From contig NZ_JAIQDE010000003.1 in the NCBI RefSeq assembly GCF_020037015.1, positions 1-64,000 on the forward strand: 64,000 bases of DNA, written 5' to 3'. Positions 1,552-12,027 of the stretch are shown in pieces (within the stretch, counting starts at the first letter, position 1; each line of letters starts with the position of its first letter). The DNA comes from Corallococcus sp. AS-1-6 (GTDB lineage: Bacteria; Myxococcota; Myxococcia; Myxococcales; Myxococcaceae). The notes below the pieces were generated by a model. The model searched no databases. It worked only from the letters and a program-made list of their open reading frames with translations, and was not told the origin of the DNA. The position numbers and the translations under genes were made by a program.

Positions 1552-2802
1552 CTACGCCCCCGCGTACTTGCGGCGGAACTCGTGGATCTCCGCCAGCCGG
1601 AACGTGCCCGGCTCCGGGGCAATCGCCTCCGGCGCGTCGTAGGGCAGGTTCATCAGGCGCTCGTACTCCTCCACCGACACGCGCTCGCGCTTGGCCAGCA
1701 CCGTGTCCAGGTCCGCGCGGGCCATGCGCTCCGCGGCCTTCTCACCCACGACGCCGGAGTAGAACTCCGCGCAGGAGCCGCTGCCGTAGGACAAGAGGCC
1801 GATGCGCTGGCCCGCCAGCGCCGCGCCCTCCGCGTGCAACTGGCCCGCGAGCGCCAGGTACAGCGACGCCGTGTAGACGTTGCCCACCCGCGCGTTCAGC
1901 CCCAGCGACTTCGCCACCTGCGCGTCGTAGCTGGCCTGCGACTTCGCCGCCTCGTCGCGCGCCTCGGGCGTGGCCGGCCCGTTGCCCGAGTCCTCCAGGT
2001 CGCACAGCCGCACCTGCGCGTGCGCCTTGCGCGCCATCTTGCAGAAGGGCACGTGGTAGAGGATGCGCGCCAACTGCTCGCTGGGCAGCTTCGAGTCCCA
2101 GCGCACCAGCCCCTGCTCCATGGCGCGCTCGCGCCAGCCCCGGTACGCGCCGGCCATGGCGTCCAGGTAGCAGGTGATGGAGTAGTGCCCGTCCACCAGC
2201 GCCTCGCGCCGGCCCACTGGCCGCCAGAAGTCGTACACGTCCGCGGTGCTCACGCCGTTGAGCCCCACGTCCACCGCCAAGAGGTCCGGCGTCTCCGACA
2301 CCAGCAGCGCCACCGCGCCGCCGCCCTGCGTGGGCTCGCCCGCCGTCTTCAGGCCGTAGCGCGCGATGTCCGTGCACACCACCAGCGCGGAGCGGCCCGC
2401 CGCCGCGCCGGAGGCGATCCACTCCACCGCCGCCATCAGGCCCGCCGTGCCGCCGTAGCACGCGTGCTGCGAGTCGAACGTGCGCATGCCGCGCGGAAGC
2501 TTCAGCAACCCGTGCACGTGCGACGCGATGGGCTTGGAGTGGTCCACGCCCGTCTCCGTGCCCACCACCAGCATGCCCAGCTTGGAGGTGTCCACGCCCT
2601 GCTGCTGGATGAGGCGCGCGGCCGCCGTGGCCGCCAGCGACACGGAGTCCTCACCGGGGTCGTTGACCGCCATCTCCTTCGCGCCCAGGCCCGCGGTGAA
2701 CTTCGCCGGGTCCACGCCGCGCGCCCTCGCCAGGTCCTCGATGTCCACGTACCGCCGGGGGACCGCCACCGCCAGCGCTTCGATTCCAACCCGCTTCTTC
2801 AT
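1552..2802 (-). CDS. mvaS: Hydroxymethylglutaryl-CoA synthase, aib operon copy
   Basis: This 416-residue thiolase-fold enzyme condenses acetyl-CoA with acetoacetyl-CoA to give HMG-CoA in the cytoplasm. The family landmarks are present: catalytic Glu83 in GTETGVDHSKP, nucleophile Cys115 in HACYGGTAG, and His250 in YHVPFCKM, in the usual order and spacing. Length is normal for a bacterial HMG-CoA synthase. It is the last gene of a five-gene run in the order known from Myxococcus xanthus, where MvaS feeds the alternative isovaleryl-CoA route and can replace leucine breakdown as source of iso-branched starter. The gap to aibC is 41 bases. Regulation is expected through AibR upstream. I am confident in the family and in the pathway assignment, which rests on gene order. 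Confidence 0.95.
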   Translation of the reverse strand: MKKRVGIEALAVAVPRRYVDIEDLARARGVDPAKFTAGLGAKEMAVNDPGEDSVSLAATAAARLIQQQGVDTSKLGMLVVGTETGVDHSKPIASHVHGLLKLPRGMRTFDSQHACYGGTAGLMAAVEWIASGAAAGRSALVVCTDIARYGLKTAGEPTQGGGAVALLVSETPDLLAVDVGLNGVSTADVYDFWRPVGRREALVDGHYSITCYLDAMAGAYRGWRERAMEQGLVRWDSKLPSEQLARILYHVPFCKMARKAHAQVRLCDLEDSGNGPATPEARDEAAKSQASYDAQVAKSLGLNARVGNVYTASLYLALAGQLHAEGAALAGQRIGLLSYGSGSCAEFYSGVVGEKAAERMARADLDTVLAKRERVSVEEYERLMNLPYDAPEAIAPEPGTFRLAEIHEFRRKYAGA

Positions 2803-2843
2803 GGGGAACTCCTCAAGTCAAAAGGTCGCGAATCCAGTGGGCC

Positions 2844-3881
2844 TCACGCCGCGGGCGGCACCAGCACCAGCCGGCCCGCCACTTCCCGGTTCTCCAGGCG
2901 GAAGTGCGCGCGGCCCGCGTCCGCCAGCGCCACCTCTTCCGACACGAAGGGGCGGATGAGGCCCCGGGCCGTCAGCCGCAGCGACTCGTCCAGCTCCTCG
3001 CGTGTCGTCGCGTACGCGCCCAGGATCTCCAGCTCCTTCACGATGACCAGGCCCGGGTTGAGGTTCACCACCCCCGACTCCAGGTTGCCCACCACCACCA
3101 CGCGCCCACCGGGCGCCATGGCCTTGAGCGTCTGATCAAACGTGGCGCTGCCGACGATCTCCACCGCCACGTCCACACCCTGGCCCTGCGTGCGCTTGCG
3201 CGCCTCCGAACCGAAGTCCAGGCCGCGCGACACGATCACCTCGTCCGCGCCCGCCTCCTTGAGGGCCGCCACCTTCGCCTCGCCGGAGGTGATGGCGATG
3301 ACGCGCGCCCCGTCCACCTTGGCCAACTGCACGGCGGCCAGGCCCACGCCGCCGCTGGCGCCGGTGATGAGGACCGTCTCACCGGCCTTCACCTTGGCCC
3401 GCGTGCGCAGCGTGTGCACGGCGGTGCCCAGCGTGCAGCACACCGTGGCGGCCACCGCCCAGGGCAGGTCGGACGGCACGCGGCCCAGGCCCCGCACCGG
3501 GGCCACCATGAACTGCGCGTAGCCGCCCTGGAGCTCCTCGCCGAAGAAGCGGTTGTCCGTCTTGCACAGGCTGTTGCGGCCGGAGAGGCACAGCGCGCAC
3601 TCGCCGCAGGACATGCGCTGCAGCGTCGCCGCGCGGTCGCCCACCTTCCAGCCCACCGTGTCCGGGCCCACCTCCACCACCTCGCCCGCGGCCTCGTGGC
3701 CCAGGATGGCGGGCACGTGCGTGCGGGGCAGGTTGCCGCGGCGGTTGATGACGTCGTGGTAGCAGACGCCGCACGCGTGGACCTTCAGCAGCACCTCGCC
3801 CTTGCCCGGCCGGGGGACCGGCACGGTCTCCAGGCGCAGGTTCTCTGCACTGCCGAACTGGCGAAGAACGACGGCTTCCAT
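2844..3881 (-). CDS. aibC: Zinc-type medium-chain reductase AibC
   Basis: The 345-residue protein is a medium-chain dehydrogenase/reductase. N-terminal GroES-like part: catalytic zinc ligands Cys37 (with Cys40) in ACGVC and His62-Glu63 in GHEAAGEV; structural zinc lobe with Cys92, Cys95, Cys98 and Cys106. The Rossmann part carries a GASGGVGLAAVQLAK nucleotide loop near residue 165. In M. xanthus, AibC reduces 3,3-dimethylacrylyl-CoA to isovaleryl-CoA, the last step of the pathway; I transfer that role from the operon context. It lies 48 bases after aibB and 41 before mvaS. By sequence alone it could be any zinc alcohol dehydrogenase or crotonyl-CoA reductase-like enzyme. Confidence 0.92.
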   Translation of the reverse strand: MEAVVLRQFGSAENLRLETVPVPRPGKGEVLLKVHACGVCYHDVINRRGNLPRTHVPAILGHEAAGEVVEVGPDTVGWKVGDRAATLQRMSCGECALCLSGRNSLCKTDNRFFGEELQGGYAQFMVAPVRGLGRVPSDLPWAVAATVCCTLGTAVHTLRTRAKVKAGETVLITGASGGVGLAAVQLAKVDGARVIAITSGEAKVAALKEAGADEVIVSRGLDFGSEARKRTQGQGVDVAVEIVGSATFDQTLKAMAPGGRVVVVGNLESGVVNLNPGLVIVKELEILGAYATTREELDESLRLTARGLIRPFVSEEVALADAGRAHFRLENREVAGRLVLVPPAA

Positions 3882-3929
3882 GCGGTGCCTCTTTTCCGTG
3901 TGGCTTTGAAGGTGGGGGAGCAGTGCTTT

Positions 3930-4676
3930 TCAGCCGCCGACGAGCGCGTCGCGCAGGTTGCGGGGGTCCAGCGCGCGGATGGCCGACACCGTGCGCGCGT
4001 CCGGAAGCGGGGTGACGGGCAGGGCGTCCGGCACCGCGAACTCGAAGCCGGTCCGCTCGGCGATGCCGTCCACCGTGGCCCAGGGGTGACGCGACAACAG
4101 CCTCGCCCCACGAGGGCTGCCCAGCTCATACGTGCCCAGGTCGGAGATGAGCCGCACCGGACGGCTGGGGTCGCGCGTGGTGGCCACCTGGACCTGGGGG
4201 ACGAGGTTGCGCCGCGACTGCCGGGGCACCAGCAGCACCGGGTTCTTCACCCACTGACGCAAGGTCGCCGCGCCCGCCACGCCGGGGAACTTGGTGCGCG
4301 GCTTGTCCAGGCTGCCGGACGCCGTCATGTTGGTGCGGCCCGCCGGATCCACCTCCGCCGCGCCGAAGAAGACCGTGTCCACCCGGCCCCGCCGCGCGTG
4401 GTCGAACAGGTCCGCGATGCTCACCTCCGCGGAGCGCCCGTCCAGGTAGCGCAGGTCCTCGGACGACGGGTACAGCTCCGGCAGCGCCGGATCCAACGAG
4501 CCGACACACGCCAGGTACGTCAGCCCCGGCGCGTGCGTGGCCCGGGCCACCGCGATGGCCAGGATGACCAGCGGCGACGCCACGCCCGTGGCCACCACCG
4601 AGCCGTCCTCGATCTCCCGCGCCAGCAGCGACACCACCGTCTCCGCGGGCGTCGCGTCCACCGTCGTCGTCGTCAT
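3930..4676 (-). CDS. aibB: 3-methylglutaconyl-CoA decarboxylase subunit AibB
   Basis: This 248-residue protein has the fold signature of a class I CoA-transferase beta subunit. Classical transferases carry the catalytic Glu in an SENG-type motif; here the corresponding stretch reads YLACVGSLDP with Cys57 in its place. That agrees with published work on M. xanthus AibA/AibB, where the pair no longer transfers CoA but decarboxylates 3-methylglutaconyl-CoA to 3,3-dimethylacrylyl-CoA, using an active-site cysteine of AibB. The ATG overlaps the aibA stop by four bases (ATGA), so the two subunits are translationally coupled, as expected for a heteromer. Cytoplasmic. The assignment rests on gene order plus the missing Glu. 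Confidence 0.93.
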   Translation of the reverse strand: MTTTTVDATPAETVVSLLAREIEDGSVVATGVASPLVILAIAVARATHAPGLTYLACVGSLDPALPELYPSSEDLRYLDGRSAEVSIADLFDHARRGRVDTVFFGAAEVDPAGRTNMTASGSLDKPRTKFPGVAGAATLRQWVKNPVLLVPRQSRRNLVPQVQVATTRDPSRPVRLISDLGTYELGSPRGARLLSRHPWATVDGIAERTGFEFAVPDALPVTPLPDARTVSAIRALDPRNLRDALVGG

Positions 4677-5473
4677 GCCGCGCTCCGCGTCGCGCGCAGC
4701 GACATGAGGAAGCCCTTCGCGTCGCCCGCGTCCGCCGCGGCCAGGTAGGCCGCGAGCATCGCGTCGTCATGCGGGTACTGGCCCAGGCAGCCCGTGGGCA
4801 GCGCGCCGCCGGGGGCGAGCACCACGCGCTCCACCTGGAAGGCGGGAATGGTGACGCGCGACAGCCTGGGCACGCGCTCCTCCACCGTGGCGATGATCCG
4901 CTTCGCCGCGCCCGCGACGAGCAGGTCCGTGGTGGGGTCTTCAATCAGCAGGTTGCCCTTGTCGTCCGCGGCCCGGGCGTGGATGAGCGCCACGTCCGGG
5001 TAGTACGCGGGCTCCACCGGCACGCGGCGGCCGGTGAACGGGTCCTCCACCGTGCGCGGCGCGTCCACCTCCGCCAGCTCCGACACGTCCGCGTCCGGCG
5101 CGGGGATGAACGGCAGCCCCATGGACGCCGCGCGCAGCCGCTGCACCACGCGGTAGCCGTCGTGCTCGCGCCACTCAATCTCGCCCGCCTCGATGGCCCG
5201 CTTGAGGCAGGGCAGGGGACGCACGCGGTTCTCCAGCACCAGCGCGCCGAAGGGCAGCTCCACGCGCTTCAAGCACCCGCCCGCGACCAGGAACTCCGCC
5301 GGCAGCGGGTTGGGCAGGGAGATGAGCTGCAGGCCGCGCTTCTCCTGGGCCACCAGCTCCAGCACCAGCGCCATGGGCGCGCGGCCCAGCATGAACCCCC
5401 CGGCCGCGAGCGACGCGCCGTCCGGGATGGAGGCCACCGCCTCCGGCAGGGAACTCCAACGGGCGCGGTTCAC
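4673..5473 (-). CDS. aibA: 3-methylglutaconyl-CoA decarboxylase subunit AibA
   Basis: The 266-residue product resembles the alpha subunit of class I CoA-transferases: an N-terminal IPDGASLAAGGFML segment like the glycine-rich CoA-binding loop of that family, then a GLQLISLPNPLPAEFLVAGG stretch. With AibB it forms the heteromeric decarboxylase of the alternative isovaleryl-CoA pathway. Its start overlaps the stop of aibR by four bases and its stop overlaps the start of aibB by four bases, a layout that keeps regulator and both subunits on one message. No signal peptide or membrane segment. The alternative, a true CoA-transferase subunit, is disfavoured by the Cys-for-Glu change in the partner. 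Confidence 0.92.
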   Translation of the reverse strand: MNRARWSSLPEAVASIPDGASLAAGGFMLGRAPMALVLELVAQEKRGLQLISLPNPLPAEFLVAGGCLKRVELPFGALVLENRVRPLPCLKRAIEAGEIEWREHDGYRVVQRLRAASMGLPFIPAPDADVSELAEVDAPRTVEDPFTGRRVPVEPAYYPDVALIHARAADDKGNLLIEDPTTDLLVAGAAKRIIATVEERVPRLSRVTIPAFQVERVVLAPGGALPTGCLGQYPHDDAMLAAYLAAADAGDAKGFLMSLRATRSAA

Positions 5474-6165
5474 TGGGGCTCTCCTCCAGGACCGGAGCTG
5501 GAAGCGGCGCGCGGCACCATGCGCAGCGCGGGCGCGTCTTCACCGGAAGGGGCCGGGGCGCTCACGGCCGCCGCTCCGGAGGGAAAGAGCAGCTCCACCA
5601 TGCCGTCGGCGATCTGCTCCTCGGTGAGGCGCCCGTCCGGCTTGAACCACTTGTAGACCCAGAGGATCATCCCCAGGAACGAGAACGCCGCCACCGTGGG
5701 GTCCACCACGCCGCGCAGGCGGCCCAGGCGGTTGGCCTCCGCGAAGGCGTCCTCCAGGAAGCGCACGTAGCGCTTCTTGCGCCGGTCGATGTACTCGCGC
5801 GCTTCACCGGTGAGCGTGGCGTGCTCGTGGAGGATGATGATGACTTCCTTGCTGCGGCCGCTCGTCACCAGGTGGATGTTCTGCCGCATGCACTGGCGCA
5901 GCCGCTCCACCGGATCCGCCACGTCCTGGACGGGCGCGAGGACCTGCTCCTCGAACACGTCCATGCCGTAGTTCATGATGGCGAAGAGCAACTGCTCCTT
6001 GTTCTGGATGTGGTGGTAGAGCCCCGCCTTGGTCATCCGGCACGCGGCGGCGATCTCCTGCATCGACGTGCCCTCGTAGCCGCGCTCGCAGATGAGCCGC
6101 GCCGCCGTCTCCAGGATGGCCCGGTACCGCTCGCCCTCGTCCGGTTTGCGCCCCGTGGGTGTCAT
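5470..6165 (-). CDS. aibR: TetR-family repressor AibR
   Basis: The 231-residue protein has an N-terminal TetR helix-turn-helix (residues about 15-60, with TSMQEIAAACRMTKAGLYHH) and an all-helical ligand domain. The last 30 residues are Ala/Pro/Ser-rich and probably disordered. In M. xanthus, AibR represses the aib operon and releases DNA upon binding isovaleryl-CoA, giving feedback control. Here it is the first gene of the operon, and two near-perfect palindromes 46 and 70 bases upstream of its ATG fit a TetR operator. The start codon is ATG at 6165. Autoregulation follows from the layout. Confidence is high for the family and good for the AibR identity. Confidence 0.93.
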   Translation of the reverse strand: MTPTGRKPDEGERYRAILETAARLICERGYEGTSMQEIAAACRMTKAGLYHHIQNKEQLLFAIMNYGMDVFEEQVLAPVQDVADPVERLRQCMRQNIHLVTSGRSKEVIIILHEHATLTGEAREYIDRRKKRYVRFLEDAFAEANRLGRLRGVVDPTVAAFSFLGMILWVYKWFKPDGRLTEEQIADGMVELLFPSGAAAVSAPAPSGEDAPALRMVPRAASSSGPGGEPQ

Positions 6166-6211: not shown

Positions 6212-6229
6212 ACCTACCGACCGGTAGGT
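6212..6229. promoter_or_regulatory. AibR-type operator, copy 1
   Basis: ACCTACCGACCGGTAGGT has two 8-bp arms around a central AC; adding G and C at the ends extends the arms to 9 bp (6211-6230). It repeats exactly at 6236-6253, 24 bases away, so the two copies lie roughly on one DNA face. It sits between the candidate promoter and aibR. Confidence 0.85.
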
Positions 6230-6235
6230 CACTCC

Positions 6236-6253
6236 ACCTACCGACCGGTAGGT
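6236..6253. promoter_or_regulatory. AibR-type operator, copy 2
   Basis: This is the identical 18-base copy of the operator at 6212-6229. It overlaps the proposed -10 box of the aib promoter by four bases, so bound repressor would block RNA polymerase. Confidence 0.85.
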
Positions 6254-6364: not shown

Positions 6365-8474
6365 ATGCGGTCCACGCTCCTGCCCATCCTCCTCTTGTGC
6401 GCCGCGCTGGCGAGCGTGGGGGTGGGGGTCTGGACGCTCGTGAAGCGCAGCCGGACGGCGCTGGTGGAGCAGTTCGCGGGGGACCGGCAGAAGCAGTTGG
6501 ACGAGGCGGTGGGCGGCGTCACGGACTCGCTGGAGGAGGTGGGCAAGAACCTGCGCTTCGCCGGGGAGCTGATGTCCCAGCCGGGGAGCCTGGCGGAGCA
6601 CCGGCGGGAGCTGCGCGCGCTGCTGGAGGCGGTGGGCCAGTACAAGGCCATCGCGGCATACGACGGCGACGGCGCGGAGCGGCTCCTGCTGTTGGACCGC
6701 AAGCCGGACCCGCAGTTGTCGCGTGAAGGGCTGGTGGCGGAGATGGCCGGCACGGCGCGCCGCGCGCTCCTGCGTCCGCCGGGGGACCTCACCACGTCGC
6801 CCATCCTGGACGCGGCCAACGGCGGCTGGCTGCGCATCCTGGCCACCGCGCTGCCCGCGACGGACGGCAAGCCCGAGGGCGCGGTGGCGGTGCTGGTGGA
6901 CACGGAGACGTTCTTCGCGCCGCTGCGCATCGTCACCTCGGACCTGGAGGCGCGGATGCTGCTCGTGGGCACGCACGGCCAGCCCACGCCCGCGAGCGAC
7001 CCGGCCCTGGCGGAGTGGTTCGCCCGCGTGGGCCAGAAGGACGCCGGGGTGCCGGGCTTCGCGTTCCTGGTGTCCCGGCTGAAGGCCGGCGCGCGCGGCA
7101 TGCTGCCCCTGTCCGAGCAGGAGGCGGAGCGGCTGGGGCTGGGGCGCGCGGAGGTGGTGGCCGTCTACACGCCCATCCGCATGCGCGGCGGCAGCCACTG
7201 GGCGGTGGCGACGCTGGTGTCCACCGCGGCGCTGCGCTCGCACGAGCAGTCGCTGGTGGTGCGGCTGTTGGGCGCGGGCGCGCTGGTGGCGTTCTTCCTG
7301 GTGACCTTCGCGGTGTACGTGGTGCTGGCGCGGCGCAGGGCGGTGGCGCTGACGGAGAGCCGCCGGCACGCGGCCCAGCTCGCCGCGCTCCATGACCGGA
7401 CGCGGAAGATCTTGGACCACCTGCCCACGGGCGTCCTCGCGCTGACGGAGGACGGGCGGATCAGCGCCGTCAACCAGGCCCTGCGCTCGCGCGTGCCCGG
7501 CAACGTGACGGGCGCGCCGCTGGCGTCCGCGTTCCCCGGGGCGCCCGCGCCGGTGGTGGAGCGGCTCTCCGCGCTGGTGGCGTCCGCGCGCAAGGAGGAC
7601 CGGCCGCTGAGCCTGCTGGGCGAACCGCTGGCGCTCTTCGGCGACGAGGGCACGTACAACCTGCACGCGGTGCCGCTGACCGCGGAGGACCCGAAGGAGG
7701 AGACGCGCGCGCTCCTGGTGGTGGAGGACCTGAGCGACGTGCGCGCGCTGGAGACGCAGTTGCTGCGCGCGGAGAAGCTGGCCACGGTGGGCGTGCTGGC
7801 GGCGGGCATCGCGCATGAGATCGGCACGCCGCTGGGCGTGGTGCGCGGCCGGGCGGAGTACGTGCAAAGCAAGCTGGGCGCCTCGCACCCCCAGGGGCCG
7901 GGGCTGGGCGTCATCGTCGAGCAGATCGACCGGGTGAGCCGCACGCTGCGCCAGTTGCTGGACTTCTCGCGCCTGCAGCCGGCGATGGTGCGGCCGGTGT
8001 CGCTGGGGCCGCTCGCCCGGAGCGTGCATGAGCTGTTGCGGGTGGAGGCGGAGCGGCGGCGGGTGAGCTTGAGCGTGGACGTGCCGGAGTCCGTGCCCGC
8101 GCTGGCGGCGGACGCGGATCAGCTCCAGCAGGTGCTGCTCAACCTCACGCTCAACGCGTGCGACGCGTGCAGCGAGGGCGGCGCGGTGGAGGTCTCGGCC
8201 TCCGCGCTGGCGGGCCCGGAGGAGGGCACGTGGGGCCTGGTCGCGCTCACCGTGCGCGACGACGGGTGCGGGATCCCGAAGGAGCGCCTCAACCAGGTGT
8301 TCGACCCGTTCTTCACGACGAAGAAGCGCGGGCAGGGCACGGGGCTGGGGCTGACGATGGTGGCCCACGTCGTGCGCAACCACGGCGGACGGGTGGAGCT
8401 GGAGAGCACGCCGGGGCAGGGCACCCGCGTCACCGTGCTGTGGCCGGTGGCCCGCGCCGTCCCAGAGGAACGAA

Positions 8475-8497
<23 letters not shown>
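6365..8497 (+). CDS. Membrane sensor histidine kinase with PAS domain
   Basis: The 710-residue protein has a membrane segment at about residues 4-20, a sensor region of roughly 280 residues, a second membrane segment (LLGAGALVAFFLVTFAVYVV) near residue 305, and a PAS-like domain starting at ILDHLPTGVLALTEDG. The transmitter domain follows: H-box His484 in GIAHEIGTPL, N-box LNLTLNACDAC, G1 box DDGCGIP, and FFTTKKRGQGTGLGL. The ATG at 6365 was chosen because it starts the first membrane helix; the frame is open further upstream but runs through the aib operator region. The gene overlaps the following response regulator by 23 bases, so the two form a pair. The large loop between the helices suggests sensing outside the cytoplasmic membrane. 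Ligand unknown. Confidence 0.93.
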
Positions 8498-9845
<1,348 letters not shown>

Positions 9846-9863
9846 GCGCGTCACGCCAGGGGG

Positions 9864-9901
9864 CGTGGCAATGCGCCACGGGGGGATGGCGGATTGCCAC
9901 G
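9864..9901. promoter_or_regulatory. Inverted repeat, possible enhancer site or terminator
   Basis: Two 15-bp arms (9864-9878 and 9887-9901) match except for one G-G pair, around an 8-base spacer CGGGGGGA. It begins 19 bases after the activator stop and ends 42 bases before the -24 box. Both an upstream activator sequence for the EBP and a terminator for the operon fit this position. Confidence 0.6.
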
Positions 9902-9943
9902 GTCCACGGGTGATCACTCGGTGGCCCCGGGGGACGGTGGTTC

Positions 9944-9959
9944 CGGCATGTCGCTTGCT
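9944..9959 (+). promoter_or_regulatory. Sigma54 (-24/-12) promoter
   Basis: CGGCATGTCGCTTGCT carries the invariant GG and GC with exact spacing and TTGC at -12; only two of the strongly conserved bases differ from TGGCAC-N5-TTGCW. Transcription would begin near 9970, just before the GTG at 9973, so the message would be nearly leaderless. Confidence 0.7.
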
Positions 9960-9972
9960 GTGACGTGGGGCC

Positions 9973-10338
9973 GTGGCGTCCCTGCGCACAACCCGGGCCC
10001 TGCTGCTCGGTGCGGATGAGTCCCTGGCGTCGCTGCTGGCGGACGTGCTGGGCGACCTGGGCATCGCCCTGTTCCTGGACGCGGGGGACGCGGCCCGGCC
10101 GGACCTGGTGCTGGCGCACGTGGAGCGTGGGGAGGCCATCCTCCCGGTGCTGACGCACGCGCGGGTCTGCGCCGCCGCCGCGCCCGTCGTCGTCCTGCTG
10201 CCCTTCGCGGACGAGCGCCTGGTGTCCCGCGCCCTGTGTCAGGGGGCCCGGGCATGTTTCGCGCTGGGCCGCCCGCTCGATGAGCTTCGCGCCCTCCTGC
10301 GCTCGCACTTCCCTTTGCTGGAGACCACCCATGGGTGA
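9973..10338 (+). CDS. Pseudo-receiver-like small protein
   Basis: The 121-residue protein follows the alternating strand-helix pattern of a CheY-type receiver (TRALLLGADESLASLLADVLG, then APVVVLLPF and a final amphipathic helix), but the acidic pair, phosphoacceptor Asp and conserved Lys are not where a receiver has them. It may therefore act without phosphorylation, as a binding module. The GTG start follows a sigma54-type promoter by only a few bases; there is no clear ribosome binding site, which fits a leaderless message. The stop overlaps the ATG of the next gene by eight bases, so the two are coupled. Receiver ancestry is a judgement by eye. Confidence 0.6.
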   Translation: MASLRTTRALLLGADESLASLLADVLGDLGIALFLDAGDAARPDLVLAHVERGEAILPVLTHARVCAAAAPVVVLLPFADERLVSRALCQGARACFALGRPLDELRALLRSHFPLLETTHG

Positions 10339-10831
10339 ACCGATGGCCGTCGTCACCGTGCTGCGCCCCGTTGTCCCCCTGCGTGAAGCGGAGCGCCGCC
10401 CGGTGGCTCCGGTGCCGGACGCCGGGGAGACCTCCCTCTTCCATGCGGGCCAGGTCCGCGTCACCGGCGAGCGGCTCGTCGTGGGCGGCCAGAGCTGGGC
10501 GCTGCGCGACGTGCTCCAGGTGGAGACCGCGCGCCGCACCCCGAAGGTGTGGCCCTACCTGCTCGCGGTGGGCCTGGCCGCGGCGCTGGGGCTGCCGCTG
10601 TTGTCCTGGCTGTCCGTGAGCGTGTCGGCGCTGAAGGGCGCGTACGAGGCGGGCCTGGGCCTCACCGCCCTGGGCCTCTTCGCGTCCATGGCCGCGCTGC
10701 TCGTGGTGGAGGACACCCACTACCTGGTGCTAGGGCTGCCGGGCGGCTCGCGCCGCGTCTTCGGCAGCCACGACGCCCAGCTCATCGCGCGGCTTGCGGG
10801 GACGGTGCGGGCCGCGTGTCCGCGGCGGTGA
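10331..10831 (+). CDS. DUF6232-like membrane protein
   Basis: This 166-residue protein starts at the ATG within the end of the pseudo-receiver gene. Its N-terminal half has the pattern [20 protein letters not shown] of small membrane proteins of the DUF6232 type (a beta domain ahead of two helices). It is followed by two membrane segments around residues 72-97 and 108-130 and a short cytoplasmic tail. Function in this family is not known. Its last 50 bases overlap the 3' end of the oppositely oriented oxidoreductase gene. Together with the preceding gene it forms the likely target operon of the kinase/activator pair. Confidence 0.7.
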
Positions 10832-11813: not shown

Positions 11814-11972
11814 CGGGGGGACCCTCGCGCCACGGGGGGCGGAAAAGCCCTTCGATAGCCAGCGCCCCCGGGGTTTTCACGCCATTGACGCCCCCCAGGC
11901 CCCCCGGCCCGGCAGGCAGGGGCCATGCCACCCATCAGCCGGGCTTGTCGCCGGGGGCGGGGACCGCCGCCT

Positions 11973-12003
11973 GAAAACCTGTCCGACAGTCGGACAGGTT
12001 TTC
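11973..12003. terminator. 31-bp perfect palindrome
   Basis: Arms 11973-11987 and 11989-12003 are perfect reverse complements around a single A at 11988; the outer end is GAAAACC/GGTTTTC and the inner part is CTGTCCGAC. It starts 25 bases after the stop of the minus-strand GGDEF gene. On that strand the arm ends in TTTTC, so a rho-independent terminator is the likeliest role. A second 15-1-15 palindrome is at 48686-48716. Confidence 0.65.
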
Positions 12004-12027
12004 CGCCGGCCGCGCCCGGGGGCGGCT

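Follow-up and report, generated by a model that had tools for sequence, protein, structure and literature searches.

The window, a 64,000-nucleotide (nt) stretch of DNA from Corallococcus sp. AS-1-6, lies on contig C33 of a 9.5-Mb myxobacterial genome (here G000). Within it, a sensor histidine kinase gene and an activator gene are followed on the same strand by two small genes, with a compact candidate regulatory region in between:

6365–8497, plus strand: sensor histidine kinase gene (PAS_4, HisKA and HATPase_c domains; 710 amino acids (aa) from the ATG at 6365)
8475–9845, plus strand: NtrC-type activator gene (receiver, AAA+ domain with GAFTGA, Fis-type helix–turn–helix (HTH); 456 aa)
9864–9901, no strand: whole inverted repeat holding both dyads (arms 9864–9878 and 9887–9901, 15 bp; loop 8)
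9866–9878, plus strand: dyad 1, TGGCAATGCGCCA, putative binding site for an activator dimer (centred near −98)
9887–9899, plus strand: dyad 2, TGGCGGATTGCCA, putative binding site for an activator dimer (centred near −77; starts 21 bp after dyad 1 does)
9944–9959, plus strand: sigma-54 −24/−12 element, CGGCATGTCGCTTGCT, starting 57 bp downstream of the first base of dyad 2
9970–9972, plus strand: predicted leader, GCC, 3 nt (predicted +1 at 9970, from the sigma-54 spacing)
9973–10338, plus strand: pseudo-receiver gene (GTG start, 121 aa; His at the receiver Asp position)
10331–10831, plus strand: DUF6232 membrane protein gene (PF19744, E = 4.9e-17), overlapping the end of the pseudo-receiver gene

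The 3′ end of the kinase gene overlaps the 5′ end of the activator gene. Pfam assigns PF00072, PF00158 and PF02954 to the activator, which carries the full set of sequence marks of an NtrC-type response-regulator activator: the receiver Asp (residue 58), Walker A (GESGSGKE, 177) and Walker B (FLDE, 246) motifs, GAFTGA and a Fis-type HTH. An earlier note on this DNA had placed an activator gene with an intact GAFTGA loop directly before a promoter, and this holds, with GAFTGA at residue 224 (window 9144) and the stop codon at 9845. The gap from the activator gene to the next gene, on the same strand, is 127 nt. One RpoN gene was found in the genome (Sigma54_DBD match, E = 2.5e-64).

The two genes that follow, the putative targets, had been described from the letters alone as encoding a pseudo-receiver and a DUF6232-like protein. 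Pfam bears out the second description. For the first, no Pfam or NCBIfam family matches, and the call is upheld by profile alignment: an eight-member pseudo-receiver profile can be aligned across 113 columns to the receiver domains of the activators (probability 94.5%, E = 7.6e-8). The position of the phosphorylated Asp in functional receivers is occupied by another residue in all eight aligned proteins. A single-sequence structure model of the pseudo-receiver had a mean pLDDT of 43.5, too poor for use.

Other features of the window flank this locus. Minus-strand genes at 1552–6165 look like the aib isovaleryl operon, headed by a regulator (5470–6165) that matches the solved TetR regulator PDB 5k7f (E = 4.4e-109), which we take to be AibR of Myxococcus xanthus. 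Two perfect palindromes, ACCTACCGACCGGTAGGT (6212–6229 and 6236–6253), lie between the kinase gene and this divergent regulator; one is present at locus L046. A near-perfect palindrome, AAAACCTGTCCGACAGTCGGACAGGTTTT (11971–12005), between a luciferase-like gene and the next gene, is probably a terminator.

The earlier note had read the sequence behind the activator gene as one inverted repeat with 15-bp arms. The repeat is present, its arms pairing at 14 of 15 positions (one mismatch) around a loop of 8, but it is better read as two dimer sites, for each arm is itself a 13-bp dyad and the two dyads start 21 bp apart. Their centres, near −98 and −77, fall where activator sites are commonly found. 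In the window the inverted repeat is rare, though not unique: 15-bp-arm repeats with up to one mismatch and loops of 3–20 gave seven rows at five places, against 0, 1 and 1 in first-order Markov controls. Across the 9.5-Mb genome, paired TGGCN5GCCA dyads with a gap of 5–14 turn up in the window and at just one further place, which has a 27-bp spacing; the tandem site at 21-bp spacing is found in the window only. We rejected a large regulon on this count and on two others. Single dyads with up to two mismatches show no genome-wide enrichment (238 versus 326 in a reversed control), and the best additional match (G000:C44:270719) has neither a partner dyad nor a promoter within the flank inspected.

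Downstream of the dyads, GG (9945–9946) and GC (9957–9958) stand at the exact N10 spacing that had been noted for the 16-base element at 9944–9959. Compared with TGGCACGN4TTGCW, CGGCATGTCGCTTGCT has two mismatches and keeps 10 of the 12 fixed positions. By itself, such a match is no more than chance would give in this GC-rich window, where 76 matches with up to three mismatches were counted against 108.75 expected and nine of the matches listed have two mismatches; the verdict therefore needs relatives, and significance comes from conservation. The GG-N10-GC frame and the RpoN encoded in the genome, which are the sequence features expected of a sigma-54 promoter, together with the conservation described below, support the reading of 9944–9959 as a real, conserved sigma-54 promoter with predicted dependence on RpoN.

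A search for the activator family gave 45 matches in 35 of 59 genomes, the window included. Wider flanks were read for 41 of these loci (the window among them), and the remaining four (G029, G044:C135, G051 and G052) were read through short loci and pseudo-receiver loci. At the linked target gene, a GG-N10-GC element with up to three mismatches is present in 41 of the 45 relatives; in the other four, which are second-paralogue loci (L054–L057), the −12 GC reads GA. These four belong to genus g24, presumably Myxococcus, and have TTGA in place of TTGC with the rest of the element kept. The usual order past the activator stop codon is dyad, dyad, GGCAYG-N4-TTGCT and start codon.

We then scanned 51 loci (831,590 bases, both strands) for two dyads with at most one mismatch each, 20–23 bp apart, followed by a promoter 20–80 bp on. 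This strict scan returned 34 hits, 31 of them distinct (three loci are present twice), and none in reversed sequences or in ten shuffles. Twenty-five distinct hits are at target promoters and six lie before the kinase–activator operon. Though 20–80 bp was allowed, dyad 2 lies 55–58 bp from the promoter in 30 of the 31, the exception being L047, with 67 bp, one helical turn more. Strict dyads thus mark 25 of the 45 target promoters, 24 of them with a distance of 56–58 bp and one with 67; weaker dyads are found at the other 20. At L039–L041 and L045 the second dyad of the target promoter has two mismatches, and L204 has a looser one. The second-paralogue group (L048–L058, 11 loci) has a dyad variant of the GGCRWTNCGCAAC type, mostly at 22–23-bp spacing, and the most diverged loci (L067, L068, L190 and L191) keep the sigma-54 element and the start position with no recognisable dyads. 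With their conservation and phasing ahead of the promoter over 31 distinct hits, the dyads have the sequence character of an upstream activating sequence. The comparative data thereby support the proposal of the earlier note that an enhancer-placed repeat and a sigma-54 promoter are tied to the neighbouring activator.

The six hits before the kinase–activator operon, each with dyads and sigma-54 element, come from L037, L039–L041, L045 and L053, and L038 and L052 have looser versions of the site there. This candidate autoregulatory site of the relatives is absent from the window's genus. In Corallococcus sp. CA053C (L069), the activator is kept (93%) and the stretch behind it is rearranged, with no promoter element in the roughly 265 bases inspected there (1600–1900 of that locus). 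This locus is not among the 45, and the other 79 rows of its contig scan are distant activators that were not used.

The identity of the first target gene varies among the relatives. It encodes a pseudo-receiver in the window's genus, in the g24 genomes of L042–L044 and L046, and in L047, L067 and L068; an OmpA-domain lipoprotein in L037–L041, L045, L048–L053, L058 and L066 (PF00691; three were tested, with E = 3e-21 to 5e-23); and, judged by eye, a DUF6232-like protein in L191 and another exported-looking protein in L190. No element lies behind the activator in L034 and L059–L065, and another gene occupies that place in L035 and L036, where the dyads and promoter are found 740 bp downstream, directly before the pseudo-receiver gene. 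A search with the pseudo-receiver was positive in 13 of 13 genomes, which comprise G031, that of the window and 11 more, with dyads and promoter upstream of it in 11 of 11 further loci (L193–L203) and in L204. These loci form an out-of-sample set, as the activator end had earlier been seen without the element in ten of the eleven genomes; the exception is G044:C135, whose end was not read. Because the element stands upstream of the pseudo-receiver gene away from the activator, it belongs to the target gene and has moved with it, and because it stays with that gene where others have been inserted behind the activator, it is not the activator's terminator.

A terminator or hairpin of the kinase–activator operon, with a chance sigma-54 look-alike behind it, is accordingly a highly improbable account that we reject: the repeat does lie 18 bp past the activator stop codon and, as RNA, has a stable predicted fold (−37.6 kcal/mol, z = −4.45), but it has no T-run, a terminator scan is blank at 9864–9910, the element stands beside the target gene and apart from the activator in L035, L036 and L193–L204, dyad 1 falls within the last codons of the activator in L037–L041, L045, L047 and L066, and both the dyad–dyad and the dyad–promoter spacings are fixed.

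Myxobacteria have many NtrC-type activators, and the sigma-54 promoter might be real and yet be bound by one of the others, such as the 75% paralogue on G000:C54. The target of this paralogue has related dyads of the GGCRTTTCGCAAC type, and the HTH core is identical in the two activators. We nevertheless consider another activator improbable, given that activator and element stay linked, with strict dyads, in ten genera, that every paralogue clade carries a distinct dyad variant at the target belonging to it, and that the genome has a single exact tandem site with 21-bp spacing. The paralogous kinase–activator pair (75%; G000:C54:80173–81519, L049) and its relatives (L048–L058) have their own variant dyads, and in the L049 pair a sigma-54 promoter precedes a gene for an OmpA-type lipoprotein with its start codon at +4.

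The arrangement resembles characterized sigma-54 systems of M. xanthus. NmpR, an NtrC-like response regulator, uses tandem GCGCA-N5-TGCGC dyads spaced 14–15 nt, and as in the present family the tandem dyads lie upstream of a sigma-54 site and its own operon is among the targets (PMC11841059). The dyads differ, however, being TGGC-N5-GCCA here with 8–9 nt between them, and NmpR has several scattered targets, whereas the genome studied here has one exact tandem site (PMC11841059). No match to GCGCA-N5-TGCGC with up to two mismatches, the mark of the NmpR regulon, is found within 9860–9972. Nla28 is likewise a myxobacterial sigma-54 activator that acts on paired repeats; its 8-bp half-sites read CT(C/G)CG(C/G)AG and its regulon is thought to exceed 100 genes (PMC9765219). 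The Nla28 half-site sequence is absent from 9860–9972.

Taking the C of the −12 GC as −12 and placing +1 12 bases after it, the promoter spacing predicts a transcript that begins at 9970, about three bases before the GTG at 9973, as the earlier note had predicted. The comparative data support this start and indicate that it is not peculiar to the window: although the first genes differ, 30 of 41 related promoters have the start codon at +2 to +6 of the message predicted for them. No Shine–Dalgarno motif is found inside these predicted 1–5-nt leaders. Six promoters (L196, L198, L200, L202, L203 and L204) have leaders of 12–14 nt, all with such a motif, and five (L199, L194, L195, L197 and L201) received no call, having no start with a frame of at least 95 aa within 24 nt. 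L054–L057 were left out of the tally because their −12 reads GA; a weak promoter-like match at +542 in L065 was judged to be chance and also left out, its genome being counted through L201. In the activator tree (41 rows, midpoint root), the seven activators of leadered or uncalled targets (L059–L065) form one clade (100/100), and near-leaderless targets occur throughout the rest of the tree, including the deepest fork (L190/L191). With the leadered clade single and the near-leaderless state everywhere else on the tree, the simplest reading is that the predicted near-leaderless start is old and changed once.

A real promoter could still yield a message that is not leaderless in practice, either with its start elsewhere or with translation mainly from read-through of the activator operon. 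Activator and target are co-directional with no terminator found in the 127 nt between them, and 4 of the 30 near-leaderless genes have a Shine–Dalgarno-like motif immediately before the predicted +1. The motif is absent in the other 26, though, while the start codon in the OmpA group is fixed by lipoprotein signal peptides and the single longer-leader clade has the motif in 6 of 6 readable cases; we regard this alternative as unlikely. A nearly leaderless start from the activator-linked promoter is the reading that we prefer. The wider idea that sigma-54 promoters of the family are leaderless in general found no support: start offsets are broad across 96 genomes, and among the matches listed (from the 51 genomes with a match), which do not include every site (the window's own +4 GTG is missing), 5 of 38 clusters fall at +3/+4. 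Three unrelated strict sigma-54 sites in G000 have an ATG at +3/+4, before genes that by eye appear to encode a pilus-assembly-like protein (L149, G000:C1:268480), a lipoprotein (L150, G000:C81:129714) and an exported protein (L151, G000:C65:210332).

Leaderless mRNAs are well known. In Deinococcus–Thermus the −10 region of the promoter adjoins the open reading frame of leaderless genes; a core promoter element directly before the start codon is common to both cases, but theirs is a promoter of the −10 type and the one described here is a −24/−12 sigma-54 promoter under an activator (PMC12340547). In the proteobacterium Sinorhizobium meliloti, a single study mapped 171 leaderless starts and reported 112 sigma-54 motifs, two sets that its passages on them do not link; leaderless there means a start exactly at the AUG, whereas here the predicted start lies 1–5 nt before the start codon, which is GTG in some (PMC3616915). 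The main text of the NmpR paper has no occurrence of leaderless messages (PMC11841059), and our searches of the open-access literature turned up none that deals with leaderless sigma-54 messages in myxobacteria. A nearly leaderless start appears unusual for this promoter class. Enhancers, moreover, are usually described as tolerant of distance, and by comparison the fixed distance seen here is unusual. The type of switch is known; the predicted near-leaderless start and the rigid spacing are the features of a new variant.

Taken together, the locus is very probably a promoter through which a local two-component sigma-54 circuit controls its target genes, giving a nearly leaderless mRNA. In the proposed mechanism, a signal would lead the kinase (6365–8497) to phosphorylate the activator (8475–9845), which would then occupy both dyads, one dimer on each, along a single face of the DNA at the 21-bp spacing. 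The assembled activator ring would remodel RpoN-polymerase at 9944–9959 from a fixed short distance, and this fixed distance suggests direct contact between activator and polymerase rather than free looping. The transcript would begin near 9970 with a leader of about 3 nt, encode the pseudo-receiver and the DUF6232 membrane protein, and be translated by leaderless-type initiation. From the OmpA/Pal-type lipoprotein that comes first in relatives, and from the DUF6232 membrane protein that follows, we infer an envelope-linked role for the target operon. We found no paper in the open-access literature on DUF6232 or on M. xanthus MXAN_4261/4262, numbers that we derived from the aib numbering.

More speculatively, the near-zero leader could be a conserved design that adds a second, translational lock, so that only activator-driven transcripts are translated and read-through RNA stays silent. 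With the −12 element immediately ahead of the start codon, translation would be confined to the promoter-born transcript, and read-through RNA would bury a start codon without a Shine–Dalgarno motif behind a stable hairpin. The rigid distance of 56–58 bp, or one turn more, would let the ring touch the polymerase without variable looping. In line with this idea, the clade with a Shine–Dalgarno leader has its target kilobases from the activator; the target of L034/L193 is also kilobases away, however, and has stayed leaderless. We hold this design to be rather doubtful.

Whatever the role of the leader, the kinase–activator pair now has, across ten or more genera, candidates for its binding site, its promoter and its target operon. 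Should the 5′ ends be confirmed, the promoters would constitute a family-wide set of activator-controlled sigma-54 promoters with nearly leaderless mRNAs, and the clade that switched to a Shine–Dalgarno leader would provide a natural control. The system would thus offer a way to study how tight control by sigma-54 came to be joined to leaderless translation.
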